From: Nymphaea colorata
Taxonomy: Eukaryota; Streptophyta; Magnoliopsida; Nymphaeales; Nymphaeaceae
Direction of reading: 5' to 3'
DNA length: 64,000 nt
Assembly (NCBI RefSeq): GCF_008831285.2
Contig: NC_045139.1
Location: 3,356,704 to 3,420,703, forward strand
Part shown: positions 13,698-64,000 of the stretch, in pieces
How positions within the stretch are numbered: position 1 is the first letter of the stretch
Layout: the number at the start of each line of letters is the position of its first letter
Position numbers and translations under genes: made by a program
The notes under the pieces: generated by a model
Databases searched by the model: none
What the model saw: the letters and a program-made list of their open reading frames with translations, nothing else
What the model was told of the DNA's origin: nothing

Positions 13698-16600
13698 ATG
13701 AAGTCGCAGAGCAACAAGGCAGGGCCTTCGATGTCGCCCCTGTCCAGGAGCCATGGACGCTTTGACTACGATGTATTCTTGAGCTTTCGAGGAGAAGACA
13801 CCCGCCATAATTTCGCCGGCTTGCTCCGTGATATGCTTTATCTACAGGGCATACACGCCTTTTTTGATGAGGAAGATTTGCACAAGGGACAGAGGATTGA
13901 GGAGATATTGGAGGCGATAAGCAGGTCCAAGGTATTGGTTCCCATCTTCTCGCAGCGCTACGCTGAATCTAAGTGGTGTTTAAGAGAAGTTGCCAAAATG
14001 GTGGAATCTTGTCATCATGGTGGGCAAGAGAGCCTCATCATTCCTATCTTCTTTGATGTGAATCCGGCCGACGTGCGACATCAGAGTGGCCCATTTGAAT
14101 CTGCCTTCCAGAAGCACGAGACGAAAAGCTGGAGGAATATCTTCGGCGAGGTCGATGAATGGAAGAACGCACTGCTATACGTTGGAGGAATTTCTGGCTT
14201 TCATCTTAAGAATGGGTGTTTCATGCTTCTCCCACCTTTTCTACTTCCATCATTCTAATACTCAAATATTCTTTTCCTGTATCTGTATGCAAATGTTAAT
14301 GAGGACTATTAGGAAGTTAAAGAACTAGGAACCCATACATTCATCCGATTAGACAGCTTACAAGATGCTGTTATTTATCATTTTTCGTTTTCTGATAACC
14401 GTGGCTCACAGAGATCGGCATAAGAGGTGGAGGAAGGGTGGTATAGTTTATGGATACCGCTACTACCACTTATCTTCTGGTTAGCCAAATGTTGGTGGCG
14501 GTCTCTGTTATCCCAATGTATATTTCTCCAAAGTGAGGAACAGAAGAAGGAACTTACAATCTTGAATCAATGTTTAATTTCTACCCATTCCCTGCCGTTT
14601 AATATCCCTTTTCAGTCTTAACAGGATATGCGTGATCTTTTCTCTTTGCTATCCATCAGCCGGAATATGGATTTTCTATGTTCTCTCAATTTCTCAAAGT
14701 TGTGCTTAGGCACGTGGTTGATTAAGAGTATTGTGATTCCGAATCAAATCCGCTGGGAGATGGTCTCCTCCACCTTTTATTGCCAGAGAATGAAAGATAA
14801 GATTGTTATCCACCTCATGAAGTTGTCTCTAATTGAGATTAAGGTTACTATGTTTTGCAGAAACCAAAGGGAGCTTATCAAGTCAATTGTTGCAGAGATT
14901 CAGAAGGTTTTACCAGCTGACAGGCTCCTTGATGAAGGGGAATACATTGTTGGTCTTGAGCACCGTGTGAAAGAGATGATGAAGCGCTTGGACTTTGAAG
15001 CAAAAGATGTCCGGATCATTGGAGTCCATGGTATTGGCGGTATAGGGAAGACAACCCTTGCAAAGGCGGTGTATAACAGAAGCCATCGCTTCTTTGAAGC
15101 TAGTAGCTTCATCGAAAATGTAAGGGAAGAATCGAAATCCAAAGGTCTCGTCCAGCTGCAGAAACATCTCATTCAAGATATTTCAAAAGGCAAACACAGA
15201 AAAAGGATAAGTAACATAAGTCAAGGGACCCAAATGATTATGCAAATGGTTGGTAGTAAGAGTATTCTTCTTGTTCTTGATGATGTCAATGAACAAGAGC
15301 AGCTCGATGCATTGGCTCGCAAGATAAGCTGGTTCCATTCAGGAAGCAGAATCATCATCACTACAAGGCAAGTGAAGATCCTCAAGCTCGCAGGATTGCC
15401 GGCCGAAGCTGTTTATATGGTTGAGGAATTGCGTGAGGAAGAATCGCTTCAGCTATTCAACTATCACGCATGTGGAGACGAACAGCCCAAACAGGAATAC
15501 ACCAAAATTATCCAAGGAAGTCGTATCAATTAGCAATGGGCTACCATTAATTCTCCGAGTATTCGGATCACTTTTTAAAACAGCAGAAACACCAGAAGAG
15601 TGGAACAAATTGCTGGAAGACTTAAGACTTCGTCAAGATAGCAAAGTTCATGAAAAATTAAGAATATGTTATGACAGTATGAATGACAATGAGAAGCTAA
15701 TCTTTTTGGATATTGCATGCCTTCTTGTCAGGAAAAATGTGGAGGATGCGATATATATGTGGGAAGATCATAACGTTTCACCTAATCTAGCTATAAGGAG
15801 CTTGCAAAATAGGTCCCTTGTTAGGATTAACAAGGGAAAGTTTGAAATGCATGACCAAATAAGAGACATGGGAAGGGAAATCGTTCTAAGGGAAAGTCTC
15901 TTTCTTCCCAGAAATCGCAGCAGGCTGTGGCGTGAAAGAGACATAGTGGACTCTCTAAGGAACTCTCAGGTAAGACCTGGTCCGGTCCTTTTCTCTTACC
16001 TTAAGGTAATCTTTGTCGTTCTTTGTATATATATATATATATATATTAGTTGTCCGCAAATCGTCTTGAATCAGTCTTTCAAAGAAAATCAGTGCTAAAC
16101 TTTAAGAGTGCCATGTGTTAGCTTTGAACTTTCGAAAAGTATGTTTTATGATTTTAATTAACATTCATATATTTTTAATTTATTTTAAATAGCAATTAGT
16201 TAGTATTTTTTGCCATTGGATGACTGATTAAAAGCCCATTTTTACAACATTGGTAAAAGCTTAAAACGAATTTATATGATTTCAGAGCAAACTTTTGTCT
16301 TTAAAGGACAACGATTTTCCGACAAGCAAATTCGTTTTTGGAACGTTAGTTGTTTTGTCATTTTCAAAGTAGCAGAGATGTAAGTTGTGACGTTGGTTTC
16401 TAAATTGTCATTTCTGTAATGCTATGAGAGACTATAATTTTTGTTTATCAATTCCTATATATATGTATATATGCAGCTACAAGACCCTCTTCGACTTTGT
16501 TGGAAATCATGTAAAAAAATTATAATCACTAAAACAATGAAAACATTGGTGCTTCAACCTGTATCAAATAGATGAGAATTGATACTACTTTGCAAGAATT

Positions 16601-19600
16601 GATGGACAATACCAATATAGACAAAATCGGTCCATAGCATGACAGTAGCCAGCGCCACAGGACTGAGGATCTCTCGAAAAACAAAAGAAAGTTGAGCCTT
16701 GACTTCTCGTTACTCGAATTTAGGACCAAACCAGTCTCTATGTGGGCATTGGTTCCCAACTTGAGAAGATCTTCTAGGATGGTCATATCTATCCAATAGT
16801 GGTAAACTGTTTCCCTACAAATCCCCACTTTAAGGCAATTATCATTAAGGTCGGCAAAAGCGGAAGCAATGTTATGGGTTTCATTGGATGGTATGGATGC
16901 AATCTGCAAACAGAACTTTCCTTTGTAGGATGAATGACAAAGTACACATCGTTCTGCTGTTTTATAGTCCAAGGTTTGATTGCAGGCACTCCAAGTCATA
17001 CTGTCTTCTGGCTGTTTTTAGGTGAAAGTTTCTCTGCTCTCACTTGAGTAGATTTTCCTAACTGAAAACTTATCTAGGTTTCTGCAAGTCTATTCTGTCC
17101 ACAGTCACCAAGATGTAGGTTCATATATGGCAATGCTGTTGAACAAATTATTAATGGAGTGTAAAGTTCGCAAACCAATCTAATTATGTGTTTTCAGGGA
17201 AGCATGACTGAAGGGATCATTCTCAACTTACGTGAGGGAAGCGACACAAGATTAAGCACCGAAGCCTTTTTATTGATATCCGAACTCAGAATACTCCTTA
17301 TCAACTCTGCCATCTTTGGTAATTGTGACTTTAGGCATTTTCCTGCAAGCCTGAAATGGTTAGAATGGAAAGGATGCCCCTTGGAAACATTTCCACTTGA
17401 AAGCAAGTTTAAAAGCGTTGTGGTCCTTAACCTGTCCCGGAGTTTTATCAGCCAATTGTGGAATTGAACAGCATCATGCTCAAAATCTACCAAAGAGGTT
17501 TGCAATTGATACAATGTCTAGTATTCTATTGCAACGTTACTGATGCAGAATGTTGTTTATTGACTTAATATGCACCATTTTGACAGTTGTATGAAGGACT
17601 AAAAGTCCTTGATCTCTCCTGCTGTGATTGTCTCAATTGCACTCCCAATTTTGCAGTGGCGCCAAACTTAAAGAAGCTGATACTTGACGAATGCAGCAAC
17701 TTGAAAGAAGTCGATGATTCAATTGGGTTTCTGAAAAAATTGGTGTTTCTTAGCATGAGGGAGTGTGTTTCCTTGGAGAAATTACCCAACAAAATATATG
17801 AGTTGAGTTCTCTTGCAGTTTTCAATCTCGAAGGATGCCACAAGCTTGTTGCTTTTCCACAATTTCTGGCAGGATCGGATTCCACGGGAGACTTGCATGG
17901 TGTGATGAACAATCAACCCACTTCTAGGCAACTGACAAATTTCATGAGAGGTCTTTCCAATCTCGAGGAGCTCATCTTGAGAGACTGTGAAAGCCTTGAA
18001 TTTCTACCTCGCCTTCATGAGTTTCATTCTTTAAGAAGCCTGCACATAGATGGTTGCCAGGGCCTTAACCGCATCAGGAAATATTTGTTTGAGGTAAAAT
18101 CTCTCTCTCTCTCTGAGAATACAAACATTTCCTTGACGGGGTCATTTTTTTTTTCCTGTTGACATTTCAGAATGTGGCAGTTAGAGAGTGGGATGAACTC
18201 AGTGTTTCTGGAAGTGAAACGCAGTCTTCGAAGCAAGAATTTTCTTTCATGGTTCCGATCGGATCTATTAATGATCCCTTACTTTTGCAGCAGCTACAGT
18301 GCCATGGTTATGGTGATCCATGCGAAGAAGGGACCATGACATTACATGTTCGTTATGAGGATATAGCAAATAATTGGTTGACCTTAGATACTATATTTGA
18401 AGCTCGCTGTGACTATTCCATTTATGAGGACAATGCGTATGGCTATTGCTACACAATCTGTTTTGGTAGGAACGATCAGATAAATGAGGCCCCAAGGGGA
18501 GAAACCGTAATTATGAAGGTTACAACTGTGAACAATTGTAAGCTGACAAAAGTTGATATCAAACTTCAAAAAAGTAGCAGGTTTAGTGGTGAGAACATGA
18601 TGAAGCCATACATCAGCATATCTAGAAGGGAAGCTTTTATGAGTCCACCGACTTCAGTAAATCCATCATCATCAAGGAAATTTGAGTTTGAATTCTCTAC
18701 ATTCTTCAGTGCCTATCAAGCGGATAAACTCGAAGTCATTGAATATTCAGCAACGCTTGATGCTCGTATCACTCAAATGATGTGGCGACTGCATGCCCAA
18801 TGTGGAGAACAAATGTTCCACTTTGGGTGGACTATTGAGGAACTCATCATCCTTACCTTGATCTTTGGTGATACCGAAGTTTCATGGTATGAGCAATGGC
18901 ATGAAACGATGTTGCCACGACAAGCAAGGGATAGAGTTTGTCATACGGTACCTGCTCTTGTGAAAACAGCAATTTATGACAAAATGAAAGTTCTCGATAT
19001 CTCTCATTGTAGGTTTCTTGTTAGGACACCTGATTTTGCACGAACCCCAAATTTGGAAAAGTTGATTCTTGACCATTGTGGATCCTTACTTGAAATCGGT
19101 GAATCCATTGGACAACTGAAGAAGCTTATCCTACTTAACATCACTCGATGTGCAAAACTGCTTGCGCTACCTTGCGCTATTTTGCAACTGAATTCCCTTC
19201 GAGTACTCAGCCTTGAACGTTGTTCAGCAATCAAGTTCCTACCGGAAACTTGTTCTCGTATATGGAAGAGTCACATGATGCATGTAGGTTTGGAGGCGCT
19301 ACAAGAGCTCGTACTTGATTATTGCACTTTAAGAGGAATGCCATACTATGTTGGAGGACTTCAGTGCCTGCGTCGCCTATCCTTGAGAGGTTGCTATTCA
19401 CTTGCATCTCTACCACTTTCTATTGGAAGTTTAGTGGTACTAGAGGAGCTGAATGTGGCAGAGTGCTCAAAGCTCTTCAGTATCCCTGGCTTGGAGAAAT
19501 TGAGATCACTAAAAGTCGTGCATATGAACGGCTGCGATCATCTCGATCTCGAACAGATTCATAGGCAGTTGAAGGTATCCTTTTCTTCTTTTCCATTCAA

Positions 19601-19923: not shown

Positions 19924-20411
19924 TTACCCTCTATTTCCCTTCATCCAAACATATAGAGCAGGTTATATCATGCTTCCTGGCATCATCCGTCCCCGTGGTT
20001 TCTCCTCTTTCATTTGCCCTATAAAATACATTTTTATTTCTCTCTTTGTTACATACTCTTGGTCCAACGTTTTAGCTGTAGTCAAGGCTTTTGGCCAATC
20101 TTTTATTAGAAATCACAGCTTTTTCTCTCCTTTTTATGGTACTTTGCAACTTTTCTGCCTCCATTTTTCTTGTGCAGGTCTTTCAGGATCTCGAGGCATT
20201 TAGCATTTCCATTGCAACTTGGAACGTCATCAACACATCTTTTCTCTCTCCGATAGACTTGGGCAAGAGCAGCAGGATATCTTTTCCCTTTCCGAGAGGA
20301 GGGCGCGTGGGCAGGGAGCCCCTGTATGTTGAACAAATCAATGTCGCAATTGGAGGAACACTGGGTTATGGAAGAATCAATCTTGAGATCAAAACTACAG
20401 AAGAAAATGTT

Positions 20412-20623
20412 CTACATGTTGATGCCCTGCCTTTATCAAAACTACATGTTGATGCCCTGCCTTTATCAAAACGTTCAAGCAGAGATGTATCAAAATTTGA
20501 AGCCGAGCAATTATCAGCGAAGACTCAGGCCCCTTGTAGACAAACCTTTTTACAAACGTTCAAGCAGAGGTGTATCAAAATTTGAACCCGAGCAATTATC
20601 CGCGAAGACCCAGGCCCTTGTAG
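20412..20623 (+). repeat. Two tandem duplications inside the TNL1 terminal exon
   Basis: A perfect 30-bp duplication (20412-20441, 20442-20471; 10 codons, LHVDALPLSK) is followed by an 84/85-bp duplication (from 20472 and from 20557, CGTTCAAGCAGAG...). The first 85-bp copy has one extra C, which shifts frame. Neither repeat is in TNL2. Confidence 0.92.
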
Positions 20624-20892
20624 CCCCAGTTAACGCCCCAGTTAACTGTTACAGAGCCTGGTTTAGGATGGATGATGAGGTAAATGAGCGCCTAAGGGTG
20701 GAGGCAGCAGCAAGTACTGATGATGCCACTAGCGTTGGAGTGCTGCACGTATCTTGCACAGAACCATCGTTCTGGCTGCAACGAGGTGATATATGGTTTC
20801 GCCAACGTCTCACACCAAAATTCAGGGGGTTGCGATCACCAGAGGATGATGGCACAGCGAGCAAAAAGCTAAAAATTGAAGGCTCTCCTTAA

Positions 20893-28621: not shown

Positions 28622-28633
28622 GGAGGGGGAGTT
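28622..28633 (+). other. Polypurine tract of Copia-2
   Basis: GGAGGGGGAGTT directly precedes the 3' LTR TG and is the plus-strand primer site of copia elements. Confidence 0.85.
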
Positions 28634-30050: not shown

Positions 30051-30495
30051 GAGGCAGCATTCCATGTTCTGGAGGCATTCAGCATTTGCAAGGAATTTCA
30101 GGAAAACGTCGTCAACACAGTATCTCTTCCCTTTCCAAGAGGGGGGCGCATGGGCAGGGAGCCCCTGTATGTTGAAAAAATCATTGCCAGTGGAGACCAG
30201 CCTGAGTTCGTCCCTTCTCGTCTCCTTGAGATCAAAGTCTCAAAAGATAGTGTGCTATATGTTGATGCTGTTGATGTAGGCCCCTACAAAAATTCATACA
30301 CAGCAAGTTTTAAGAAGGAAGATGAGATCAATGAGCACCTAAGGGTGAAGGCGGCGAGTACCGATGAATCCAATGGGGTAGAAATGCTGTACGTATCAAG
30401 CTCACTACCTTTTCTCGCTGTGACGAGTGGATGCATGGTTTCGTCAATCTCTCACGCCAGAACCAGACGATGACCTTGCCACTTCAATGATGTGA
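30051..30495 (+). pseudogene. Orphan TNL terminal exon (post-LRR domain)
   Basis: Opens EAAFHVLEAFSICKEF after a splice acceptor and continues SLPFPRGGRMGREPLYVEKI, matching the last exons of TNL1 (20178) and TNL2 (62364). The block KKEDEINEHLRVKA aligns with TNL2's GKGDEINRRLRVEA. No LRR, NB or TIR exon accompanies it. Near 30400-30435 about two bases are missing relative to TNL1, so one frame ends at 30473. The ancestral frame resumes at WFRQSLTPEPDDD (TGG 30436) and ends at TGA 30493-30495. Remnant of a deleted or rearranged TNL. Confidence 0.85.
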
Positions 30496-44274: not shown

Positions 44275-44278
44275 ATCT

Positions 44279-44290
44279 TGGTATCAGAGC
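44279..44290 (+). other. Primer binding site of Copia-3
   Basis: TGGTATCAGAGC, four bases after the LTR; initiator tRNA-Met primer. Confidence 0.93.
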
Positions 44291-44388
44291 GCCAGGTTGC
44301 GTGGGCATCTCAAGTATCTTGGAGCATTGCAGAAGCAAGGAACTCCAAATCGCGTGCTATTGGTAAGAGTTATTTTTTGAAAGCTGGT

Positions 44389-47300
44389 ATGGCTAATTCA
44401 AATACTCTCAATTTATCCCAATCCTTAGTGCCTATTTTTAATGGTGAGAACTATGAGTTTTGGAGTATCAAAATGAAGACTTACTTCATTTCACAAGATC
44501 TTTGGGAGTTAGTTGAAAATGGTTATGCAGAAACTGAAGTATCAAAGGCAGCAGGAAAGTCAATAGAGAAAATTGATGTTAAGGAATTTCAGAAGAAAGA
44601 TGCAAAGACACTCTCAATATTGCAGCAGGCTGTATCAGAGACTGTCTTCCCAACTATTGCTGGTGCAGAGAAGTCAAGTGAAGCGTGGCTATTCCTCAAA
44701 CAAAAATTTCATGGAGATAAGAAGATTACTACAGTTAAGCTCTAAATCTCAAGGAGAGAGTTTGAAACATTTTGCATGAAAACTGGTGAGTCCGTTCAAA
44801 ATTATTTTTTTAGACTCTCTACTATTGTAAATCAAATGAAGAGTTTCGGTGAAGCCATAACCGAGCAAAAGGTGTTAAGAAGTCTTCCTTCTAAATTTGA
44901 TCATGTTGTCACTGCAATAGAAGAACCCAAAGATTTGTCTATTTATTCTATTGATGAACTAATGGGGTCTCTTTTAGCACATGAGCAACATATGAACAGG
45001 TCAACAGAAAAAGGAATAGAGCAAGTTTTCCAAACAAAGATAGAGTTTTCAAAAGAGAAGAATGGAAGCTATGATCAAAGAAATGAAGGAAGGAGTCAAG
45101 GATGAGGAGGCTATAGAGGAGTCACTCATGGTTATGGTAGAGGATGTGGAAGATTTCATGGAAATTTCCATAAAACCCATGACACAACAGGAAAAGGTAA
45201 TCAAAATCAGTACTTTAGAAGAAAACAATGTAACTTTTGCAAGAAGTTTGGTCATATAGAAGCTAAATGTTTTGAAAAGGCAAAACAACAAGCTAGTTTT
45301 GTAGAAGAAAATGAGAATTTATTTCTTACAACTATGGATGCTAACAATTGCAAGAGTGAAGTTTGGTTTGTAGATAGCGGCTGCGGTAATCATATGACTG
45401 GTAACAAGAGTTTTTTCAAAGACATTGATGAGACTATACAGTTGGATGTGTGGCTTGGAGACAATAATAGAATAAGTGTGAAGGGCAAAGGATCTGCTAT
45501 CATCAAATCAGAAACAGGTATGGAAAAATTTATTAATGATGTGTATTACGTTCCCGGGTTGGCTCAAAATTTGCTTAGTGTTGGACAGTTGGTTCAAAAA
45601 GGGTACACACTTTTATTTGAAAATGATGCTTGTGAAATTAAAAATAAAAGTGGTGTAGTTCTTGCAAAAGTAAATATGGTTCGAAATAAAATGTTTTCTC
45701 TTGAGACAAATGCTTTTATGACAAAAATTGATGATTCCAAGCTATGGCACGTGAGATATGGACATCTTCATTTTAATGGATTGAAGCTCTTACATAAAAA
45801 AGGTATGGTATATGGATTACCATCTATTGATTGTCATGATGATGTACGTGAAGGGTGTATTTATGGTAAACAACATAAATTACCATTTCAAGTTGGAAAA
45901 TCATGGAGAGCTAAAATACCGCTTCAATTAGTTCATGCTGACATATGCGGTCCAATGAAAACTTCTTCATTAAATGGTAGCAAGTATTTTTTGCTATTTA
46001 CTGATGATTACACTAGAATGAGTTGGGTATATTTTCTCAGTCACAAATCTGATGCAATGGATAAATTTAAAGAGTTTAAAGTGTTTGCAGAAAAAGAAAG
46101 TGGAAATGTAATAAATATACTACGTACGGATATTGGGGGAGAATTTTTGTCTGACGAATTTGGTTTATTTTGTAAAAATCATGGCATTCGTAGACAGTTT
46201 ACAGTAAGGAAGACCCCACAACAAAATGGTGTAGCCGAAAGGAAAAATCGGACAGTGGTGGAAATGACACGCAGCATGTTAAATGAAAAACAATTACCAA
46301 GTGAATTTTGGGCTGAAGCAATCCATACGGCAGTATATCTTCTCAACATTTCTCCAACAAAGGCAGTCAGAAACAAAACTCCATTCGAAGCATGGTGGAA
46401 TCGCAAACCAAATGTAAGTATGTTAAAAGTCTTTGGATGTGTTGCATATGCATTAATTGATCCTAGTGAAAGAAGCAAGTTGGATAAGAAGAGTGAAAAA
46501 TGCATTTTCATTGGTTATAGTAGTGAAACTAAGGATTATCGTCTTTATAATTCTATCACTAAGAAGATGATTATAAGAAGAGACATTATATTTGATGAAA
46601 AAGCTTGCTGGGATTGGGTTAAGAATGAAACCATGAAACTCCAAGTTGACGGGGAAGAAGTGAATCCAAGTCATATTGACGAAGAACCAAAGGAGAAAGA
46701 TGAAGCCTTGAAGGAGACGATCAATGAAGGTATTGAATCCATTTCTGAAGAAACTCCTCCAAGAAATGTACGATCCTTAAATGACATTTATAAGTGTGCA
46801 TTCGCTTTTGCTGTTATAGAACCTTCAACTTTTGATGAAGCATGTGTAGACAAAAATTGGATGAATGCTATGAAAGAGGAAATACAAACCATAGAAAAGA
46901 ATGACACACACATGGGAGCTCTCTAAGTTGCCGTCGGGGAAGGAACCAATTGGAGTAAAATGAGTCTATAAGGTGAAGTATGATGCTAAAGGTAACGTGA
47001 AAAAATATAAAGCAAGGCTGGTTGCTAGAGGTTTTGTGCAAGTATATGGAATTGATTTTACTGAGACGTTTTCACCTGTTGCAAGATTTGAGACAGTAAG
47101 AATGGTTCTTTTTATTGCTGCTCAATTTAAATGGAAAGTTTTTCAGTTTGATGTCAAGTCTGCTTTCCTAAATGGCTATTTGAATGAAGAAGTGTATGTT
47201 GATCAACCACCTGGATTTAAAATTAAAGGAAAAGAAGACAATGTTTATAAACTTAAAAAGGCATTATACGGACTTAAACAAGCTCCTCGTGCTTGGTATA

Positions 47301-48354
47301 GTCGTCTTGGTAAATTTCTTCATCAAAATGGCTTTCAAAGAAGTGATAGTGAGCCAACTCTTTATGTCAAAGTGAGTGAAAATCATTTACTTATTGTAAG
47401 TGTTTATGTGGATGACATTATCTATACTGGCACTTCTTCTAGCCTTATTGCAGAATTTAAAAATTGTATGATGAGGGAGTTTGAAATGTCTGATTTGGGA
47501 TTGTTGCATTACTTTCTTGGTGTTCAAGTAGTACAAAGTGATGAAGGAATCTTTATATCGCAAAGAAAATATGCATTAGATACTCTGAAAAAGTTTAAAA
47601 TGATGAATTGTAATGGTTGTGCAACTCCCATGAACACCAACGAAAAGCTGAATGCAGATGATGGAATGGCAAAAGTAAATGAAAAATATTTCAGAAGCAT
47701 GGTCGGTGCATTGATGTACTTGACACATACCAGACCTGACATTGTGTTTTCAGTGAGTTTGATATCAAGGTTCATGCAAGATCCTTCAGTGCAACATCTT
47801 AGTGCAGCAAAAAGAATTCTTCGTTACATTCAATCTACACTCAACTATGGAATTTTTTATAAACCTGTGACTAACTTTGGTTTACCTGGATATACTGATA
47901 GTGATTGGGCAGGTTCTGTTGATGATCGGAAAAGTACAAGTGGTTTTGTATTTGGATTTGGTTCAAGTGCTGTGTCGTGGTGCTCAAAGAAACAAAGTTC
48001 AACAGCCTTATCATTTTCGGAAGCTGAGTATATTGCTACTACTGCTGCTGCATGTCAAGCGATATGGATGAGACATATTTTAGAAGATCTTCAATTGAAG
48101 CAAGAGAATCCAACTCAGTTATACTGTGATAACAAATCTACTATTTCCATGGCAAAAAATCCATCATTTCACGGAAGGACTAAACATATAGAGTTACGTT
48201 ATCACTTTATTAGAGACGTGATTGAGAAAGAAGAAATTGAGTTGAAGCAATGTTTCACAAAGAGCAAGTTGCGGATGGTTTTACAAAAGCACTACCACCA
48301 TCAAAGTTTTTCAATTTTCGAGAAGCGATTGGAGTACAAGATTTTTCACATTAA
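44389..48354 (+). pseudogene. Copia-3 gag-pol, multiply interrupted
   Basis: Starts MANSNTLNLSQSLVPIFNGE. Blocks in order: Gag (LWELVENGY, QKFHGDKK), zinc knuckle CNFCKKFGHIEAKC, protease FVDSGCGNHMTG, pre-integrase HVRYGHLHF, integrase HADICGP / RTDIGGEF / QNGVAERKNR, RT KARLVARGFVQVYGIDFTE and YVDDIIYTG, RNase H DSDWAG, SEAEYIA, YCDNKSTISMAKNP. Defects: TAA at 44743 in Gag, TGA at 45103 before the knuckle, a 4-bp CACA gain near 46904, TGA near 46961 where a Trp is expected, and a frameshift near 48265 before the VADGFTKALPPSKF end. Cannot supply its own polyprotein. Confidence 0.92.
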
Positions 48355-48364
48355 GGGGAAGAAA

Positions 48365-48718
48365 TGTTAGCTAATGTGAATGTGTGAGCAATATGTGGAA
48401 GTGGAGAGAAATGTTAGTTAATGTGAACGTGTGAGCAATATGTGGAAGTGGAGATCGTGTAAACATGTGGTGTTTTTTTTAGTTTCTTTTCTTTAGCCAT
48501 AAAAATAGGAATTAGTGGTTATGTGTCCACAAAATGGAGCTGCTTTTTGGCAAGTGGCATTAGTGGGTAGTTTTTTCTTTTGTTCTATAAATACTAGTTC
48601 CATGCGTGTAATCCAAGGAGTGAGAAAAAGAATGAAAGTGTTGAGGTCTTTTCAAGTTTTATTTTAACGTGCCCTTTTGTAGTGTTGTTTGGTGTGGGAG
48701 TTAGAAAGACTTCCTTCA
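48365..48718 (+). repeat. 3' LTR of Copia-3
   Basis: 354 bp, preceded by the purine tract. Same internal 47-bp duplication as the 5' copy. Followed by GAATC. Confidence 0.95.
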
Positions 48719-48723: not shown

Positions 48724-50389
48724 ACGCAAATATTGACTAGATCCAAAGCCGAAGCCTCACATGGCTACTTCGAAGTTCGAACTCGTCATTTATGTTGAAA
48801 AGGAAAGGCAGGTTGCTGGAGATCAAGATCCGCGGAAGTATGTTCTATCTGAATAATTTTTCATTTCTTGAACGAGAGACAAAACCTGCAACCTTGATGA
48901 TGCAGAAGAGACTGACTTGAAGCGTTCTGTTGCCACCAAGTCAATCGAAAGTCACCAATAACGTCTCTTTCGAAGATAACTCCATTACTTTCCATCCGTC
49001 ACGAAGATATAATAATCGTACAAACAAGAACAAACAGCAAAGAAGAGTGGAGAAACTGAAGGAAACCCTCCTGCCACTTTCCTTTTCCAGTCAATTGACA
49101 TAAAAAAATGACTCTTTTTTCATTGCACAGTAAGATTTTTCAAGAAATTGTAATTATCCCATCCTTTTATCAATGTCCATAAAACCATTTTTTAATAATT
49201 GACAACCAAAAAATATGGTGAGAAACTTTAAAACTTTGTTCTTTTTCATGAATTTTCTTTATAAAATTTTTGCGTAACGACACTCTTAGAAAGCACTGGA
49301 AGGGCTTTTGGGATTGCGCTGGCAGTGTATAGAGGAACATATTGTTTGGGAAGTTGGAAATGGGAAGTCAATAAAGTTATGGGTGGATAGATGGAGAGGA
49401 GATTCTCGTGCTTGGGCTTGAAGGTGCACAGTAAGGTCAGATAGTTAGCAGGCTGAACTTGAGCTTGGCTGAACCTAGAGAATGCATCCCATCTGCCTTG
49501 TGAAGAAGCTGAAGCTTGCAAGCAGTTCAGTTTAATGAGCAGCCAGATCAATTTTTTTTCTGCATCTATATTTATGGCCAAATGAAGGAAAACTGATGCA
49601 TTTATAGCATCGAAATGCTCGTTGGTGGAATCGATTAAACTTATTATGTTTCTTCATTTAATTTGGTCACAATGTTTACAATGAGTGCATGGAAGATGGC
49701 GGAAACCACATGAAAAATTATTTAAAAAATGTCCTTTTGTATCTTTTTACTTTTTTCAATTTCTTCTTTTATTCTTACAAAAAGTTATTTTTCTTATTTA
49801 AAAGAAGTCATTTTCATGATTGACCGTATTGGTGCAAGAAATTTTGTGCATCAGCATACCTAACCAGCTTTAGTAAAATAAAAGCACAACATGCCCTAAC
49901 AAGCCACGTTATATTTACCTGGGCAAAACGTCGGAACGTGATAACTTTTAACCGGAATGACCCTAAAAACTGGGTAAAATTCTTTTGTATACTTGATGGG
50001 GGAAGGATTTAACCTGCATTCAAACGCACTTAAGAGAACTAGAACTTGATCGAATAAAATTAGGTGCTGAAGCTGGTTTTTTTTTTTTAACCATCAAATG
50101 TTGAGTGTGTGTTTTGAGGTTCAAATCTTTTGCAGTGTGTAACTTTTATTTTGCAGTGTATGACCTTAAGAATGGAAAATTAACATCGTTTTGCAGTGTT
50201 TCAACTTTACCCTTTATCAAACTTTAACAGGATTTTGTGTTTGGTAAATTATAAGATGATTGGCTAAGAACTAAGAAGTGTAACATGAAGCACTATAGGG
50301 TATTCCAGCCTATCAAGTGGCACTTTTTTGATTCACCAGTGTCACTCCAACGGAATTTACAGAGCCTCTCGATTAAATTGATGGATTGC
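48724..50389. other. TNL 5'-flank copy followed by unassigned sequence
   Basis: About 48770-49300 aligns with the TNL 5' flank at 5390-5960 (shared CAGGTT...GAT...AAGATC and the CCTGCCACTTTC stretch). No TIR exon follows. Coding homology resumes only at about 50390 with NB-ARC. Confidence 0.5.
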
Positions 50390-50959
50390 TTTTACATCCT
50401 GAAGGCCTCATTCGGGATGTTTCAAAAGACAAGCATAAAAAAAGAGATAAATTACTTAAGGGGAGCCCAAATGATTGTACAAATGGTTGGTATTAAGACT
50501 GTTTTCTTCTTCTTGATGATGTCGACGAACAAGAGCAGCTCGATGCATCGGCTCTCGGCGTAAGCTGGTTCCATTTAGGAAGTAGAATCATCATCAATAC
50601 AAGGCAACGGGAGATCCTCATCTTTGCAAGATTGCAGGGTGAAGCTTTTATACATCTTGAGAAATTGAACGAGGAAGAACCGTTTCAGCTATTCAACAGT
50701 CATGCATTTGGAGAAGATGAAACCGAAGAAGAATATGTCGAATTATCCAAGGAAGTGGTACCATCTAGAAGTGGGGCTACCAGTAGTTCTGAGAGTAATC
50801 GGATCACTTTTTAGAACAGCAAAACCCCCAAAAGAGTGGAACAAATTGCTGAAAGAGTTGAGATTTTATCAACATAGCAAAGTTCATGAAAAATTAAAAA
50901 TATCTTATGGCAGTCTGAATGATCGTGAGAAGCTGATCTTCTCATATCTTGCATGCCTT

Positions 50960-52089
50960 TGTAAAGGCGTACGCCTCCATCCATGGCACGCTCGGTGTTT
51001 GAGGCACACGCTTCAAGGATGGAGTTTATTTAGTTTTTTTAATTTAAAAAACTAAAAATTTAATAAAATTAGTCAAGCTGGCTTCACACTTAGGCCTAGT
51101 TAAACTCCGTTTATTTCCTAAGTTCTCTTTTCTCAATCACAAATCATTGGCAGCCATCGCTACACGCCTGTGAAATTGGACGGGCATGCGCGAGCTGCTG
51201 CCTAAGTTTGATCTGCTGCGAGGACTCTTACCCCAGGCAGTGACGTCATTTTCCTTCTCCGAGACCGACGATAGATTCTTGGTGCTGCTCGAGCAGCCTT
51301 GCTACGTGCAGTTGGAGTACCTTGTCTACTATGATGTGAACATCACCGGCACCCTTCGCTATGGCAGCATCACCGAACTTAAGGTCATACAGGTGAGGAA
51401 GTTCTTCATTTGGTTGGACATCGATGAGATCAGGGCCGACTTGCCGCCCTTTGATTGCATCTACTTTTAGGTAGGGATCGTCACCAAGCGGCTTGACGTC
51501 GCCAGCCCTTTTACCTTACAAAATCATGACCGTGAACTTGAACTTATTTTCTTCATGCGTGTCATCCATGGGCTTATTTTCTTCATTACGTGTTCATCTA
51601 TTGTCCGGACTATTCTATGGATGGTGGTCCTCCTCCTATCCTTGCCATGTGCTGCAAGTATTGTGTTAGCTTATTGTATGTTTTGGGATTTGTTTTCTTG
51701 CTTTGTCACTTGCATCTTTCACTTATTGTATTTGCTTTCAATTTTTTTACATGCATTATTGTGTGCTGTTTTTTGTGCTTCATGGTAGAGTCGTAGACAG
51801 CTATGTTCAATATTTACGGAATAGAATATTTATTACATTGTTTTGTTTTATATTAATAAATATAGAAACATAAAAAATTTACATTACCACAAATTATCTT
51901 TTTCATTGTATTGTTTTTTATTGATATGCTTAGTATTGTAGTCATTTTTTTTAGTTTTGTTGTTATTTTTATAAATATTATATAATTCACAAATTTGTCC
52001 GTGAAGCTTACGCTTCAATTAGTGTCTCTCCTCTTCTTGCCTCATGAAAAGCTCAACACCTTGCCTTGCTTTACCGCCTTTTACAACAT
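50960..52089. mobile_element. 1.1-kb insertion in the TNL fragment, imperfect inverted ends
   Basis: Interrupts NB-ARC homology. TGCCTT lies on both sides (50954-50959 and 52090-52095). The left end TTTGTAAAGGCGTACG and the complement of the right end (TGTTGTAAAAGGCGGTAAA) are imperfect inverted repeats. Interior contains a DUF538 gene fragment and AT-rich DNA but no transposase. Exact ends and class are uncertain (a DNA transposon with a captured gene fragment is the simplest reading). Confidence 0.55.
51186..51527 (+). pseudogene. DUF538 protein gene fragment
   Basis: Frame reads ELLPKFDLLRGLLPQAVTS, then LEQPCYVQLEYLVYYDVNIT, GTLRYGSITELKVIQVRKFF and IRADLPPFDCIYF, the hallmark order of plant DUF538 proteins (small, function poorly known). 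A TAG at 51468-51470 replaces the expected Gln after IYF. The downstream codons VGIVTKRLDVASPF continue the family pattern, so it is a nonsense-disrupted partial copy without the usual N-terminal part. GC content is clearly above the surrounding DNA. Confidence 0.88.
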
Positions 52090-52270
52090 TGCCTTCACCT
52101 AATCCAGTTATAAGGGGCTTGCGAAATAGGTCATGTTATTAAGATAAACGAGGGACAGCTGAAATGCATTACCAAATAAGACACATGGGAAAGGAAGTCG
52201 TTCTCAATCAAGACCTAATACATCAGCTGTAAACTGCAGCAGATCATATCAGGGTTTGGAGAATATGTGG

Positions 52271-54505
52271 TGAATGGTGAGTATTAACCATGTCCTCAGT
52301 TCGAGACTCCGGATAGATTCGATCAATGCTTCCCTCCGAAGCTCGAAGGGAACAATGGTTCAATCCCAATCTCTGAGGGCACAGGGAATTTGTCGGTGTC
52401 GTTAATATCAGTCCGCATCAGCTCTTATCCCCAACTACACGCCACACGAGCCCTTCTCGTCTTGTAACTTTAACAGTGCAAGTGGGTCTTACCTTGTTTG
52501 GAACCTTAGACATCTAACTCGATCCACAGGATGTTAATGGATTGGCTTCATATTACATATCTGGCCAGAATACATAAAACATTTGGATATAGAAAAATTT
52601 CATATTTAATTAAGATATCAGATTGGATTTGAACTTAAGAAAGGAGATCTGATTAGATTCAGATTCAAATTATGTATCAAATAAAATTCTGATGAGATTC
52701 AAAATTGGATCCAGGTTAATTTTAAATAAATATTATCTATCCAACATCTATTCAAAGTCAGACTACATTTGAGTTGTGAATTTAAAAATCAGATTTAGAT
52801 ATGGCATTCATATTTGAATCTCTAATTCAAATCCAAATATATGAACGTTCAATAAGTCATACATAATAAATGGTACATCTAATTCAAATTCAATCCATTG
52901 ACATCTCTACTCAACTTAAGCATGCCTGAGATTGTAATTCAAATAGTTGGAGGCATGATAGATTTAGATTCAAGTGATCCAGATCTTGTTTTTCCCCGAA
53001 GACTCTAGACTTCGAACCATTCCTTCTTGGATTAAGTAATGGCAGCAGCATATGCCCTTCAAGTTAAGTGTCATGCAACATCACTTAAGACATAGAAGCA
53101 TAATGTTTATACGAATCAAACTAGAGACCCGTGTTTTTAGCATAATGTTTATACGAATCAAACTAGGGACCCGTGTTTTTAACATGGCCTTAGGTATCTT
53201 GAAACCCAAGAATCATTTATTTATTATGTCTTTCCTTTTATTTATGTCCATAACCATTTTAAATTTTCCTCGATGAGAATCAAAGCATCTTCGGATGGTG
53301 GAACGTCAAAAGCTATCGTTTTCTTTATAAAATTTTTTTAAGTGCAAGGGGACAATAAATATAATCTGATAGGCTGGTGAGAAACCAAAGCGTGTCTTCA
53401 CAATGTATGACGTAGTCTAGAGCGCGTTTGAAAACAAGAAGAAGAATTTCTGTTACGTGGTAAAAAAATTTCCCGGGAAAAAAATGAAGGTTTTTATTAG
53501 GATAATTTTTTTTTTTAAAAAAAAGGAAACTCTACTGATTGGATTCTAAAAAAGATAAAATCCTTATGTTTTGCCATAAACTTTTCAACCAAAGCACGCC
53601 TCGAAAACTTTGCCCTTCTCGTCCAACGTTTTCTTTAAGGGGGCAATCAAATATTTCTTTCAATTCATAAAAATATTTCATGTTTCACGAGAGGCAAATT
53701 TTTTCTATTCCATGCAAGGTTAAACTTTTCTTTAAGACTAAAGTGAGAGCTCAAGGTGGTTTGAACTTTGAATTCTGAGAAGGCTACATGGCGCATTGGG
53801 AAACCAAACAAGAATTTCTTTTAAGACTCTTGTAGTTTGTATTTAAATTTGCAGTTTATAGAACTTTAAGCTTGGAAGCAGAATTTTTTTGGAAAAATAC
53901 ATTTAAAAGAATGGTCTTACCCAATGCTATTTTAGTCGGAAAGTCCTTCCGTATCTCTTTGCTTTGACCATCATTTTTTATTACTTTTTTATTATTTTAG
54001 TCTTGTTCATAATTGTTTCTTATTTTTTATTTCTTTGATTAGGTGAGAGAAGTATTCCTTCCCCTGCAACTGGATGACGGCCTTCCTCCCCACTTCAACG
54101 CCACCGTCGGGTGGTGTAACATGGAGGATGGTGGAGATTTCTCTACGCGTCACCTTTGACCTATCCTTCCTCCGGCCCTTCAAGTAAGTTCCGCGAAGGG
54201 ACGGGTGCTGCTGTCCCACGGTTGGCTTCTTTTATTCGTGCAATAATGCATGATATATATATATATATGTGAAAAATGAGACGGCCCGAGTGGACAGTTT
54301 CATGATGCCAACCTGTTCAGAGGGACCCTTAGTTGAAGACCAACTCTAAGAAAAAAAAATGTGGGACGATAAAAGTAGCAATGGGAAGCTGTCAAGGAAT
54401 AAAAAACGACTCATAAACAAAAGTTGTGTTCTTGGGACTGTTGCTGATTAATGACTCGAAGTCTCGAACCACCTTTGATGCGTTTGGGCATATTCAATTG
54501 CAAGG
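52271..54505. other. Intergenic with two further TNL flank copies
   Basis: No gene to about 53230. 53230-53850 resembles the TNL 5' flank at 5800-6240. 54040-54230 is a GC-rich island with no identified product. 54420-54505 aligns with the bases just before the TNL2 start (56435-56506: GGGACTGTTGCT.ATTAATGACT), so another TNL unit once began here. Confidence 0.5.
53099..53182. repeat. 42-bp tandem duplication
   Basis: Two copies of CATAATGTTTATACGAATCA... (53099-53140, 53141-53182) with one or two differences. Confidence 0.93.
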
Positions 54506-56506: not shown

Positions 56507-59500
56507 ATGGCACTGCAGAGCAACATGGCAGGGCCTTCCAGATCGACCTTGTCTAGCAACCATGGTGGCTTTGAGTACGATGTGTTCTTGAGCTTTCGAG
56601 GAGAAGACACCCGCCATACTTTCACTGGATTGTTCCATTATATCCTCGTGCTACATGGCATACATGCCTACTTTGATGAGGAAGATTTGCACAAGGGAGA
56701 AAGAATTGAAGAGATATTGGTGGCCATAACCAGGTCCAAGATCTTAGTCCCTATCTTCTCCAAGCGCTATTCCGAATCGCATTGGTGCCTAAAAGAAGTT
56801 GCCAAGATGGTGGAATGTCAAAAGGATGGTAGGCAAGAAAAGTTCATCATTCCTGTCTTCTTTGACGTCGATCCAAAAGACGTAAGGTGTCAGAGTGGCC
56901 CATTTGAAGCTGCCTTTCATAGGCACCAGACGGAAAGGAGGGACAACTTGAGCGAGGTTGATGGATGGAAGCACGCACTGACATATGTTGGAGGAATTTC
57001 CGGCTTTGATCTAAAGAGCTACAATGGGTACTTCACGCCCCTCTCACCTTTTCAGTGTTGATGGTCCTAATTCCTAATGCCCAATTTTTCTTTTGTCCTG
57101 TGCATGACTTGAAGAGGACTGTTAGAAAATTAGAACTAGGGACCATCAATTCATCCCATTAGACTGCCTCAAATCAATTGCAACTCTGCCAAATGCAAAT
57201 ATTCTGACAGCCATGGACACTAATAGTTAAAAGCAGGTATGAAATTGGACACGAAGAACATGGTGAAGTTGTTTTATTCATGTAGGAACCTTGTTTCTGG
57301 AACGACTACCACACGTAAATTCACCCTTCAAGAAGGATGGGTGTGTTACCAGGAAAACACAGAAAATTTTATAAATGCTACTACTGCCGCTTTTCTCTGC
57401 TTGGCCAAATTTTGATCACAGTCCTTGTTAACCCAACCACTCTGTGTCTCCAAATTAAGTTACGCATAAAAATGGAACTTTAGAACCTTCATAATTAGGC
57501 AGAGAAGGTGGAACTTTATAATCTTTCGCATATAACAGGAAAATGCATGATCCTTTCTCTTTTCTATCTTTCGCTGAAATATGTTTTCTTCTCTCAAGTT
57601 TAATGTTGTCCTGAGGCCTGTAGCCTTCGATTGAGCCTTTGATTCACCTCTTGGATTTTTCTCTCGAACGGGAATCAAGTCACTTTCTTTTAATCTCCTT
57701 TTGTAGAGATCAAAGGGAGCTTGTCAATTCAATCACCGCTGACATGCAGAATATTTTAGCAACCAAGATGCCCCTTTACGAAAAAGAATACCTTGTTGGT
57801 CTTGAGACCCGTGTAGAAAAGATGCTGAAGTGTCTGGACTTTCAATCGAAGCACGCCCGGATCGTTGGAATCCATGGCATTGGCGGTGTGGGGAAAACAA
57901 CACTTGCCAGGGCCATCTATAACAGAAATCGTCGCTTGTTTGGAGCTAGTAGCTTCATTGAAAATGTAAGGAAAGAATCGAACTCAGGACTCATCCATCT
58001 TCAAAAGCAGCTCATTCAAGATATGTGCGAAGGCAAAGATAAAGTGGAGATAAATACCCCAAGTCAAGCGACCAAAAAGATTAAGCACATCGTTGGTTTG
58101 AAGACTGTTCTTCTTGTTTTTGATGATGTCGACGACAAAAAACAGCTAGAGGCATTGGCTGGCGACATAAGCTGGTTCGGTCCAGGAAGTAGAATTATCA
58201 TCACCACAAGGCAAGTAGGGGTCCTGCAATTGGCAGGATTGCAGGAGGAAGCGATTTATATGCTTGAAGCATTGGATGAAGAAGAATCGCTTCAGCTATT
58301 CAACCATCATGCATTTGGGGATCGAGAACCCGGAGAGGAATACATCAAATTATCTAAGTCAGTCCTATCCATTAGCAGTGGGATACCATTAATTCTCGAA
58401 GTATTCGGTTCGCTTTTCAGGACAGAAAAATCTCCGGAAGAATGGAACGAATTGCTGAAAGAATTGAGACTTCGTCAACATAGCGAAGTTCATGAAAAAT
58501 TAAGGATATGTTATGATCGTTTGAATGATAATGAGAAGATAATCTTCTTAGATATTGCATGCCTTCTTATCAGAAAAAGTTCAGAAGATGCCATCTATGT
58601 GTGGGAAGATCAAAAGCTTTCACCTCATTTAGTTATAAAGAATTTGCAGAACAAGTCTCTTATTAAGATTAAGAATGGTAAGTTTGAAATGCATGACCAA
58701 ATAAGAGACATGGGAAGGGAAATCGTTCTCAAGGAAAGCCCCCCTCATACTGGAAGCTACAGCAGGTTATGGTGTGAAGAAGACGTAATCGAAGCTTTAA
58801 CCAAGTCTCAGGTATGACCTTGCGGAGGGCTTGTTATAGACCTTCTGGCTCCTCCTACGCGAATGTTATATATACCTGGTTTCGCTTTAATGGATTTTCT
58901 TCGTTGAAAACTTGTCTATATTTTAGTAGGTTCATTTTATCCACATACAATCCAACAAGTTGCAGGTTGAAATGTGGCTAGTTTTGATCAAATGGTTGGA
59001 GGCTAAATATCTTGAACCAACCCAATTGGTTATGTGTTTTCAGGGCAACAAGGTAATTAATCGAGGCATCCTTCTCAACTTAAATGAGGAAAGCAAGGTG
59101 AAATTAAGCATTGAAGCCTTTGAATTGATGTCCGAACTGAGATTACTCCTCATCAACTTTGCCATCTTCAATCACTCTGACTTTGGACATTTTCCTGCAA
59201 GTCTAAAATGGTTAGAATGGAAAAATTGCCCCTTAGAAGCACTTCCACTTGAAATAAAGTTCAAAAACCTTGTGGTCCTTAATCTTTCTCGGAGTTTTAT
59301 CGGCAAACTGTGGAGTGAAACAGAAACGGGGTCAAGCTCAAGATCCACAAAAGAGGTTTACGATTGATTCAATATATGTATAGTAGTTGGCATTCTAATA
59401 GAATGTTTTTCATTTAGAGTGTTGCTCATTGACTAATGTGCATGTATAAGCCATTTTTGCAGTTGTTTGATGGACTCAAAGTTATTGACCTCTCCTGCTG

Positions 59501-62500
59501 TGGTTGTCTCGAAGCCACTCCCAATTTTGCTATGGCACCAAATCTGGAGAAGCTTATACTTGATGAGTGTAGCAAGTTGAAAGAAGTTGATGATTCCATT
59601 GGGTCTCTAAAAAAGTTGGTTTTTCTTAGCATGAGGGAGTGTGTGTCTTTGGAGGAACTACCCAACGAAATATATGGGTTGAGTTCTCTGATAGACTTCA
59701 ACCTTGAAGGATGCAGCAATCTTGTCGCTTTTCCACAATTTTCAGCAACAAATTCCACTACTGGCTTTTCGAAACTCAAGCAGCTCATCTTGCGAGATTG
59801 CCAGAGCCTTAAAGTTCTACCTGACCTTCATAAGTTCCAGTCTTTAAGAAGCTTGCACATAGATGGCTGCCAACTCCTTGACCACAAAAGGGAACATTTA
59901 TTTAAGGTTCTCTCTTTCTCTCTCTGTGTGTGTGTGTGTGTGTGCGTGTGCAAATCTACTCGTTTCCTTGATGGGGTTTTCAGTTTTTACATTTCTGTTG
60001 GTAATTCAGGATGTGAAATTTAGAGAATGGGATGAACTAAGCATTTTTGGGAGTCGAAGACCGTCTTATGAGCAAGAATTTTGTTTCCTGCTTCCGGTTG
60101 GGTCTATGAATGATCCCCTACTTTTACAGCAGTTAAAGTGCCATGGTTATGGTGATATATGTGAGAATGAAGTCATAAAGTTACATGTTCATTATGAAGA
60201 TATCACAAATTGGAGGTTCATCTTAGAGACTATGCGTGAAGTTCACTGTGACAATTCAATGTATAAGGATGATGTGTATGATGATTGCTATGCGATCAAT
60301 TTTGATTGGAACGACAAGATAAATGAGGCCCCAAGGGGTAATACCATAATTCTGAAGGTAAGAACTGCCAACAATTCTAAGCTAACAAGAGTTGATGTCA
60401 AATTTCAAAAAAGAAGCAAGTTTAGTGGTGTGAACATGAAGCCATTTGTCAGCATATCTAGAAGGGATGTTCAAATTGAACTCTTCATATTTGTCGCTCT
60501 CCATCAAGTAGATAAATTTGATGCCATTGAATATTCAATGAAGATTGAAAAACACATAGATGACATGTTAACGCAACTGCGCGTAGAACAAATTCTGTTT
60601 TTTGATTGGACTATTGAGGAAGTTATTATTCTTACCTTGATTTTTTGTGATACTGATGCTTCATGGTATGAGCAACGGCATGGAACACGGTTGCCACAAC
60701 AAGAAACTGCAAAGGTAAGTCATATAGTAGCTATTCCTGTAAATCAAAGTTTTTCTGACGCATGTATAATTGTAAGCGTTCAATCTTCTTTTGCAGGTTT
60801 TTGACAAAATAAAAATTCTCAATCTCTCTTATTGTAAGTTTCTTGTGAAGACACCTGATTTGGCTCGGATCCCAAATTTGGAGGAGTTGATTCTTGACCA
60901 ATGTGAATACTTACTTGAAATTGGTGAATCCATTGGACAACTGAAAAATCTCATCTTATTGAGAATGGTTGGATGTGCAAGTCTATGTGCTCTCCCTTGT
61001 GGAATTTTGCAACTGAATTCCCTTCAACTACTTAACCTTGAAGGTTGTTCCAAAATCAGGATCTTACCTAAAGCAGGCATGATGGATGTAAGGTTGGAGA
61101 GTCTTCAACGGCTTATACTTGATCATTGCACTTCATTAAGAGAAATACCAGATTATGTTGGAGGGCTCAAGTGCCTACATTGCCTATCCTTGAAAGGTTG
61201 TTCCTCACTTAAAGAAATGCCTCGCTCCATTGGAAGTTTGGTGGTCTTAGAGGAGCTCATACTTGATCATTGCACTTCATTAATGGAAATGCCAGATGAT
61301 TTTGGAGGACTGCTCAAGTGCCTACGTCGCCTATCCTTGGAAGGTTGTTTCTCACTTGAACGACTACCTAGCTCCATTGGAAGTTTGGTGGTCTTAGAGG
61401 AGCTCATACTTGATCATTGCACTTTATTAAGGGAAATGCCAGATGATTTCGAAGGACTCAAGTGCCTACGTCGCCTATCTTTGCAAGATTGTTTCTCACT
61501 TCCATTCCTACCTGGTTCCATTGGAAGGTCTGTAACAACACTACCAGATGAGCTAGACTACTTAGAGTGCCTAATTAACCCTTGGCAATTGAAGTCTGTG
61601 TCCGATCTTTCAAACTCAACAGCGTTGGAGGAGCTGAATGTAGGAAACTGCCGGAATCTCGCCACAATCCCTGGCTTGCAGAATTTGAGATCACTAAAAC
61701 TCCTATACATGAACGGCTGTTGGGATCTTGATGTCCATAAGATTTGGTCCCAGTTGAAGGTATTCTTTGCTTCTCTATTATATTGGTTGTTACTGATCCA
61801 TTAGTTGGCGAGATCAGGGTACAACCCATCTGTGTTGCTTAGCATGTTGGGCCACACATTTGATTTGCCACAGACTATAATGTACTAACGGGCAATACAT
61901 TACCGCACTGGTGAAGCGCCCTTTGTGGTTGGCTGATACAAGAAAATGATGAAATGGGGTGGCCACCTGATGTGTGTTCTATGACCTAAGTCTAGGGAAC
62001 ATCAGGAAGGTCCATGAGCCTGTGTTGGCATACTCGTTCCTGTATCGTTCGGGTACTTAAGTGGGTATTTGGACACACTTGGGTATTTTTATATTGAAAC
62101 TGCTTAATTTTATAGATTAAAACTGCTTAATTTTATTTAATGTATTCTTTTTCTGACTCAGTTTTTATTATGTTGTTTAGAGTTATTGTTCAATGTCCAT
62201 TAATATGTAAAATTTTTATTTATATCACTTGTTTATTTTAATGTTGCTCTTTTTTTTTTGCATATATATATATATATATATTCTTTTGCAATCTGATTTT
62301 TTTCACATAAAAAATTCATATTTCAGATTTTCATTGAATGTACTCATATTATTGATTACGCAGGAAGCAGCCTTTGATGATCTCCAGGCATTTAGCATCG
62401 GTTCGGCAGCAAGCAGATCGGACGGGGACTGTGTGGATCCAATATCTCTTCCGTTTCCGAGGGGAGGGTGCATGAGGAACGAGCACCTGCAACTTGAAAA

Positions 62501-62837
62501 AATGGACGTTTTTGTTTGGAAAAATTTAGAGTCTGAAACAATGTATCTTGGGGACAGAGTCCAAGAAGACGATAGCGTGCTAAATGTTGGTGTAGCTGTA
62601 GGGTCATGTCTCTTTCCAGCTGCTCGGCCCCAGATGGCCCTACGATTAAGGGCCTCACAGTTAAGGGAGGACTCTCAAGGCCGTTATCGTAAGCGCTCGT
62701 ACACAGTCAGGTTCGGGAAGGGCGATGAGATAAATAGGCGCTTGAGGGTGGAGGCAACAAGTGTCCCAATCCTACACATATCTTGCCAAGACCGAACGGT
62801 CCTTGTGATGGAAGCTGCAGTATGGATTCACACTTGA
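56507..62837 (+). CDS. TNL2: intact TIR-NB-ARC-LRR immune receptor with two non-LRR post-LRR-type domains, 7 exons
   Basis: Predicted intracellular pathogen receptor. Exons 56507-57027, 57707-58811, 59044-59355, 59463-59906, 60010-60714, 60797-61759 and 62364-62837 join to 1507 codons plus TGA with no lesion. All introns are GT-AG. TIR spans 23-165: YDVFLSFRGEDTRH and HWCLKE with the NADase Glu at about 97. NB-ARC spans about 200-505: GIGGVGKTT (231-239), LLVFDDVDD (309-317), GSRIIITTR (334-342), GIPL in place of GLPL (399-402), MHD (502-504). LRR block a is 543-794. A non-LRR domain (DVKFREWDELSIFGS...) is 795-1029. LRR block b is 1030-1350. The C-terminal domain (EAAFDDLQAFSIGS, SLPFPRGG, RFGKGDEINRRLRVEA) is 1351-1507. 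TNL1 has the same layout. A GT repeat lies in intron 4. Confidence 0.93.
61112..61543 (+). repeat. Three tandem 144-147-bp LRR units in TNL2 exon 6
   Basis: Units at 61112-61255, 61256-61402 and 61403 to about 61543, each two LRRs (LILDHCTSLREIPDYVGG..., ...SIGSLVVLEE). Units 2 and 3 share long identical nucleotide runs. TNL1 has a single such unit. Confidence 0.9.
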
Positions 62838-63119: not shown

Positions 63120-63331
63120 TACACAGCCACGTTGTGGAAGGATCGTTTATACGCACCATGTTTGGGAAGGACAGTTATTGGCGTTCACACACAGGCAGGT
63201 TTGGGAAGGACGATGAGATAAATAAGCGCTTGAGGGGAGAGGCAACAAGTGCCACTGTGTTCGGCTTACACATATCTTGCCATGACCCAACGTTCTGGAT
63301 GGTGCAAGCAAACATATCTTTTCGCACTTGA
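63120..63331 (+). pseudogene. Partial duplicate of the TNL terminal exon
   Basis: Reads GRFGKDDEINKRLRGEAT and then LHISCHDPTFWMVQANISF, ending in TGA. It repeats the last third of TNL2 exon 7 (GKGDEINRRLRVEAT, LHISCQD) about 400 bp downstream. No acceptor or upstream domain accompanies it. Its PTFW resembles the TNL1 version (PSFW) better than TNL2's own. Confidence 0.8.
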
Positions 63332-63841: not shown

Positions 63842-64000
63842 GGTGCATACGCAAATATTTATTTGAGGTATTCTCTCTCTCTCTCGCACACATGCGTGCA
63901 TGCCTATGCCACATGCTTAGTTGATGTGGTATTTTTGTTTTACATTTTTCTGTTGGCAATTCAGAATGTGGCGTTTAGAGAATGGGATGAACTCAACTTC
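63842..64000 (+). pseudogene. Start of a further TNL copy, begins within exon 4, runs off the window
   Basis: 63842-63868 reads RCIRKYLFE, the last codons of LRR exon 4 as in TNL1 (RIRKYLFE), followed by a GT donor and a CT-rich intron. After TGGCAATTCAG, 63965-64000 reads NVAFREWDELNF, the start of the exon 5 internal domain. No TIR or NB-ARC precedes it, so the copy is 5'-truncated. Whether it continues intact cannot be seen. Confidence 0.82.

Follow-up and report, generated by a model that had tools for sequence, protein, structure and literature searches.

What can lengthen the sensor half of a plant immune receptor is the question raised by a gene of the water lily Nymphaea colorata. We examined 64,000 nucleotides of NC_045139.1 (RefSeq assembly GCF_008831285.2, positions 3,356,704 to 3,420,703 of the forward strand), part of the contig labelled C2 and called the window here, which holds two loci of the TIR–nucleotide-binding–leucine-rich repeat (TIR-NB-LRR, TNL) class, TNL1 and TNL2. 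According to the available text of PMC8813719, ROQ1 and RPP1 hold their effector jointly by the LRR and the C-JID, and oligomerisation then makes their TIR domains NAD hydrolases (NADases). Each of these receptors (structures 7jlu and 7crc) has one C-JID, whereas TNL2 has two post-LRR domains, JID1 and JID2, with an LRR block between them. We read TNL2 as a TNL receptor with a sensor half lengthened into two units, LRRa-JID1 and LRRb-JID2, joined by about 90 further residues, both JIDs being C-JID-like jelly rolls; we put the probability of this reading at roughly 0.6. It starts from what is observed, namely the exon order, the open frames, the homology of the two domains, the predicted all-beta fold and a layout present in seven copies.

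TNL2 comprises seven exons (Table 1) encoding 1507 residues without an internal stop; all six introns have GT/AG ends, and all but the first are in phase 0. The whole protein matched the Pfam models for TIR, NB-ARC, WHD_ROQ1 and several kinds of LRR. TIR, NB-ARC and LRR are thus ordered in one gene, as in other TNLs, and the TIR, the NB-ARC and the ROQ1-type winged helix have been retained. The initial annotation had described residues 795–1029 (exon 5) as non-LRR and as followed by an LRR exon and a terminal non-LRR exon, and these coordinates were recovered exactly: exon 5 spans positions 60010–60714, and exon 7 encodes residues 1351–1507 (157 residues). When scanned alone, neither exon 5 nor exon 7 had a Pfam match. 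Both occupy the place of a C-JID, about 150 residues directly behind a TNL LRR block, exon 5 following LRRa and exon 7 following LRRb.

We compared the two domains as profiles with hhalign. Thirteen JID1-type and eight JID2 sequences aligned colinearly over 123 columns, with a probability of 89% and an E-value of 2.2e-6. With sequences of the TNL2 gene cluster only (the first 149–150 residues of seven JID1 against seven JID2), the score was 37.9 over 104 columns, compared with 18.8 for the best of 30 column shuffles and 10.1 for the reversed profile; with rows from the X and C11 genes (see below) added, only 41 end columns aligned, scoring 39.6 against 15.8 or less in the controls. At the level of sequence, the similarity between JID1 and JID2 is above chance. 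The kinship that the initial annotation had proposed therefore holds, well above shuffles and reversal, and the landmarks it had listed as common to both domains lie within the profile alignments. Its view of exon 5 as one domain akin to exon 7 applies to the first ~139 residues, but the last ~90 are something else.

Structure prediction with AlphaFold2 (AF2), on 13 and 8 sequences, gave all-beta models for both domains. JID1 is predicted to have nine strands, with a folded part at about residues 6–139 of exon 5 (mean confidence score, pLDDT, of 60–85 per 10-residue block over residues 11–140), and JID2 eight strands at moderate confidence; both models would thus agree with the eight- or nine-stranded beta-sandwich of a C-JID. 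Their structural matches are jelly rolls and sandwiches, the best 50 listed for JID1 including seipin, toxin domains, carbohydrate-binding modules (CBMs) and capsids. The rest of exon 5, the extension, had a pLDDT below 50 (residues 140–235). Within it, a W-x-[IV]-[ED]-E-x-I-I block is common to all seven copies. Searches of the PDB with exons 5 and 7 and their profiles yielded no meaningful match, the ROQ1 and RPP1 chains included. Three of the 13 JID1-type rows (X1–X3) match Pfam TIR, because their JID exon continues into a TIR, and six others have one weak Pfam match each (E 0.029–0.093); the eight JID2 rows match no Pfam family. A genome-wide search with Pfam C-JID returned no candidates, which does not establish absence. 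The signature motifs of the C-JID, as given in the available text of PMC8813719, are P-x-[YEW]-F, a Cys with hydrophobics, a His and Cys-Gly. By eye, P-x-[YEW]-F and Cys-Gly are absent from exons 5 and 7 of TNL2 and from both alignments, which leaves the four-motif set incomplete; JID1 has an invariant Cys44, but polar residues follow it.

The layout is not confined to TNL2. A tblastn search with its seven exons, which covered the fetched parts of the genome (genome-search counts here are lower bounds), found seven copies on C2 at 3.327–3.476 Mb in the order TIR-NB-NLL-LRRa-JID1-LRRb-JID2 (NLL, NB-LRR linker), copies A and B being on the strand opposite to the others, as well as degraded copies on C7 and C13. 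In three of the seven (B, TNL2 and F), all exons matched without a stop or frame break. JID2 of copy A is interrupted close to its end; copy E has a frame break in the TIR, and an in-frame repeat interrupts its JID2; copy G has a stop inside the NB. TNL1 has the same domain order as TNL2, as initially annotated, but its NB exon and its JID2 each lie in two frames and its NLL contains a stop. The acceptor AG is present at JID1 in all seven copies and at JID2 in 8/8, counting a solo JID2 exon (in TNL1 it sits three bases before the aligned start). Six copies have a GT donor behind JID1, one codon later in copy B, and JID1 and LRRb form one frame in the seventh, TNL1; the other six have an AG at the LRRb acceptor. 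The LRRb donor GT was seen in 6/7, the alignment of copy A stopping short of it. Median pairwise dN/dS (nonsynonymous to synonymous substitution rates) was 0.32 for TIR, 0.33 for LRRa, 0.48 for JID1, 0.52 for LRRb and 0.60 for JID2, and within the JID1 exon 0.41 for the first part and 0.60 for the extension (21 pairs). Damaged copies contribute to these values; LRRb was compared without copy G, TIR without E and JID2 without TNL1, and a single JID2 pair yielded no value.

Trees and a further search bear on how the second unit arose. The seven LRRa form one group (87/92), whose nearest relatives, weakly (82/77), are the LRRs of three TNLs on C11, in which the LRR is followed by a JID1-like exon; the seven LRRb form another group (100/100). 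The JID tree separates JID2 from JID1 and the JIDs of the C11 and X genes with support of 100/100; JID1 alone reaches only 41/69 as a group, and JID2 of copy G forms a long branch. A search with the C11 JID found 16 places: the seven cluster JID1s, three in the X genes, C11 itself (four rows) and two broken copies (C11 and C1). From this search and the trees, we conclude that JID1 is a post-LRR domain type common to other TNLs of the genome, that LRRa-JID1 is probably the older unit, and that, in preference to an insertion of JID1 amid LRRs, LRRb-JID2 was probably appended to the end ahead of the expansion of the cluster. Duplication of a post-LRR module together with LRRs had been proposed in the initial annotation; the resulting TIR-NB-LRR-JID-LRR-JID layout and the domain homology stand, and the second unit may have arisen by duplication of an exon pair or by fusion, with the X genes nearby.

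Under the alternative that survives best, which we nevertheless consider unlikely, the gene fused with an adjacent TNL, which supplied the added half and later lost its TIR and NB, leaving the extension as a worn TIR remnant. X2 and X3, 0.29–0.32 Mb from TNL2, have the order TIR-NB-NLL-LRR-JID-TIR-NB-LRR, and X1 shares it from the NLL on, its first TIR and NB being unmatched in the ~14 kb examined before it; in all three, the JID and the second TIR are in one frame. MAFFT places the extension on this second TIR. A separate summed alignment score gave z 4.3, which none of 200 shuffles equalled, but the two alignments behind that value that were inspected lie in another register, and against N-terminal TIRs z was 0.7 (44/200 shuffles as high). 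In hhalign, the extension scored 15.2, 13.3 and 18.7 against three TIR profiles, whose best shuffles reached 15.6, 19.3 and 18.6, and AF2 found no confident fold in it. Profiles, semi-global alignment and AF2 thus did not show that exon 5 ends in a relic of a TIR, and this idea was set aside. So was an origin of LRRb in the second half of a fused TNL-TNL gene: LRRb does not group in the tree with the second LRRs of the X genes, which are on a long branch. The profiles of JID2 and JID1 found no convincing JID behind that second LRR, with best E-values of 1.3 and 0.42, respectively. TNTNL and TNLTNL fusion genes have reportedly been described; going by partial accounts, they resemble TNL2 in doubling TNL parts within one gene but repeat TIR and NB, whereas TNL2 has one of each. 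The second TIR of the X genes has Ser in place of the Glu of TNL2 in the W-C-L-x-E stretch, which we take to be the catalytic residue; judged by this residue, it may be an inactive, integrated TIR.

It is improbable that JID1 and JID2 are unrelated jelly rolls, alike by fold only. Jelly rolls are common, a long branch separates the two domains, and both structural match lists include seipin (6ds5), Cry4Ba (1w99) and a CBM (7zvo), but mere likeness of fold would not account for the colinear profile match, far above shuffles and reversal, or for the same phase and position behind an LRR exon. Less probable still is that the TNL ends at exon 5, with exons 6 and 7 a separate gene or unspliced debris, as the purely genomic basis of the model, the existence of the solo JID2 exon and relics and the LRRa acceptor (no AG at the aligned place in copy E, AG three bases upstream in copy G) might suggest, given that the order is kept in 7/7 copies, the phase-0 sites are conserved, median dN/dS is below 1, the cluster copies show no TIR or NB match in the stretch from JID1 to LRRb and the JID1-LRRb frame of TNL1 is uninterrupted.

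Several points count against TNL2 as a receptor with two C-JID-like sensor units. Confidence in the two AF2 models is middling (mean pLDDT 56.9 and 65.8), and neither model had a Foldseek match at E ≤0.001; RPP1 and ROQ1 are absent from the 50 JID1 structural matches listed, which leaves them possible beyond the list. Pfam C-JID (PF20160) was found in 0/13 JID1-type and 0/8 JID2 rows, each scanned alone, at E up to 10. In four of the seven copies there is a stop, a frame break or an interruption of JID2, and some JID2 pairs have a dN/dS near or above 1 (maximum 1.06). The exon structure is predicted from genomic sequence, and effector binding by either unit is inferred by analogy.

If TNL2 acts as ROQ1 and RPP1 do, an LRR and the jelly roll behind it would grip a pathogen effector, four receptors would then assemble and the TIR NADase would be switched on. 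The second LRR-JID unit would add another binding surface to the chain, and two units in series would either enlarge the grip on a single effector or create two distinct sites. The extension may cap LRRb or serve as a hinge.

The initial annotation knew of no described receptor with this layout, a claim that proved too broad: similar, though non-identical, layouts are in print. As far as the accessible portions of these papers go, Prunus Ma has five post-LRR (PL) domains, and 12 peach TNLs have two or more (PMC4851768, PMC6141779). Like TNL2, they have several post-LRR domains, one exon each, there by exon duplication; unlike in TNL2, the five PL domains of Ma are consecutive without an LRR between them, and PL motifs are recognisable. 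Further binding surfaces have likewise been speculated for the five domains (PMC8813719). A CT/GT microsatellite lies in the LRRa-JID1 intron of TNL2 (59907–60009), and a microsatellite has also been described in peach LRR-PL introns. In grape, GSVIVT01037222001 reads LRR-PL-LRR-PL-LRR-PL (PMC4851768); LRR and post-LRR domains alternate in one predicted protein, as in TNL2, but it is from a eudicot, has three units, lacks TIR-NB in the reported chain and is one predicted peptide, not a cluster of seven copies. The doubled LRR-JID layout in water lily is new as far as the open literature searched, in its accessible text, shows. A 2025 survey, in its available text, found no C-JID integration outside eudicots, and “Nymphaea” is absent from its main text (PMC12787737). 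A Pfam-negative, C-JID-like post-LRR sandwich has been described in the TNL #1 group, to which a magnoliid belongs but which is absent from Nymphaeales (PMC9806590, available part); therefore, cryptic C-JIDs are not a new idea. A Euryale survey, as far as its text is available, reports integrated domains in nine TNLs, seven of them C-terminal, and has neither “C-JID” nor “PL domain” in its main text.

Elsewhere in the window, the solo JID2 exon shares 93% identity across 121 residues with the JID2 of copy A, the two lying 60 kb apart, and tblastn found no LRR or NB matches upstream of it. The JID2 relic and the JID1-like exon start downstream of TNL2 may together represent a dead copy lying between TNL2 and copy E. 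By eye, long Ty1-copia-type frames with gag, integrase and reverse-transcriptase-like parts lie at 6813–11231, 24568–28581 and 44239–48370; near-identical frames that look like long terminal repeats (23689–24236 and 28559–29109) flank the second, and this second element with its flanks sits between JID2 of TNL1 and the solo JID2.

Table 1. Features of the TNL loci and their relatives (window positions, except X1–X3).
Feature	Position	Strand	Evidence
TNL2 exon 1, TIR	56507..57027	+	ATG to GT donor, open; Pfam TIR 2.5e-35
TNL2 exon 2, NB-ARC and winged helix	57707..58811	+	Pfam NB-ARC 2.1e-32, WHD_ROQ1 2e-15
TNL2 exon 3, NLL	59044..59355	+	open; with LRRa aligns to Roq1 and RPP1 chains
TNL2 exon 4, first LRR block (LRRa)	59463..59906	+	open reading, gene model
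TNL2 exon 5, first part, JID1, between LRR blocks	60010..60456	+	AF2 strands; JID2 profile match
TNL2 exon 5, second part, 86-residue extension before LRRb	60457..60714	+	aligns across seven copies
TNL2 exon 6, second LRR block (LRRb)	60797..61759	+	open reading, gene model
TNL2 exon 7, JID2, terminal (predicted all-beta) domain and stop codon	62364..62837	+	
TNL1 TIR	13698..14213	+	tblastn, 69% to TNL2
TNL1 NB exon, two frames	14862..15969	+	tblastn
TNL1 NLL, internal stop	17204..17497	+	
TNL1 LRRa	17587..18093	+	tblastn
TNL1 JID1 and LRRb, single frame, no TNL2-type intron	18171..19575	+	open frame 18117–19652
TNL1 JID2, two frames	20181..20892	+	tblastn
Solo JID2 exon, AG acceptor	30051..30473	+	tblastn
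JID2 relic downstream of TNL2	63182..63316	+	tblastn, 58%
Further JID1-like exon start, cut by window end	63965..64000	+	by eye; not among 17 places of genome search
NB and TIR exon pieces of the same family	50383–52274, 11475–11905		tblastn
X1–X3	C2:3696409–3702552, 3707818–3717585, 3725529–3739630		

It is evenly balanced whether TNLs of this ANA-grade water lily carry C-JID homologues too diverged for Pfam, such that the post-LRR jelly roll predates the eudicots, against the 2025 survey, and was repeated together with LRRs to form a two-site sensor maintained across the cluster, with a cluster-specific extension joining the units. If both units bind, a single receptor could recognise two different effectors or two faces of the same effector; as the sensor units are separable by exon, the question could be tested by exon deletion. 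If these are true C-JIDs in Nymphaeales, sequence-model surveys of post-LRR domains would have undercounted them, and the age of this effector-binding module would shift from the eudicots to early flowering plants.
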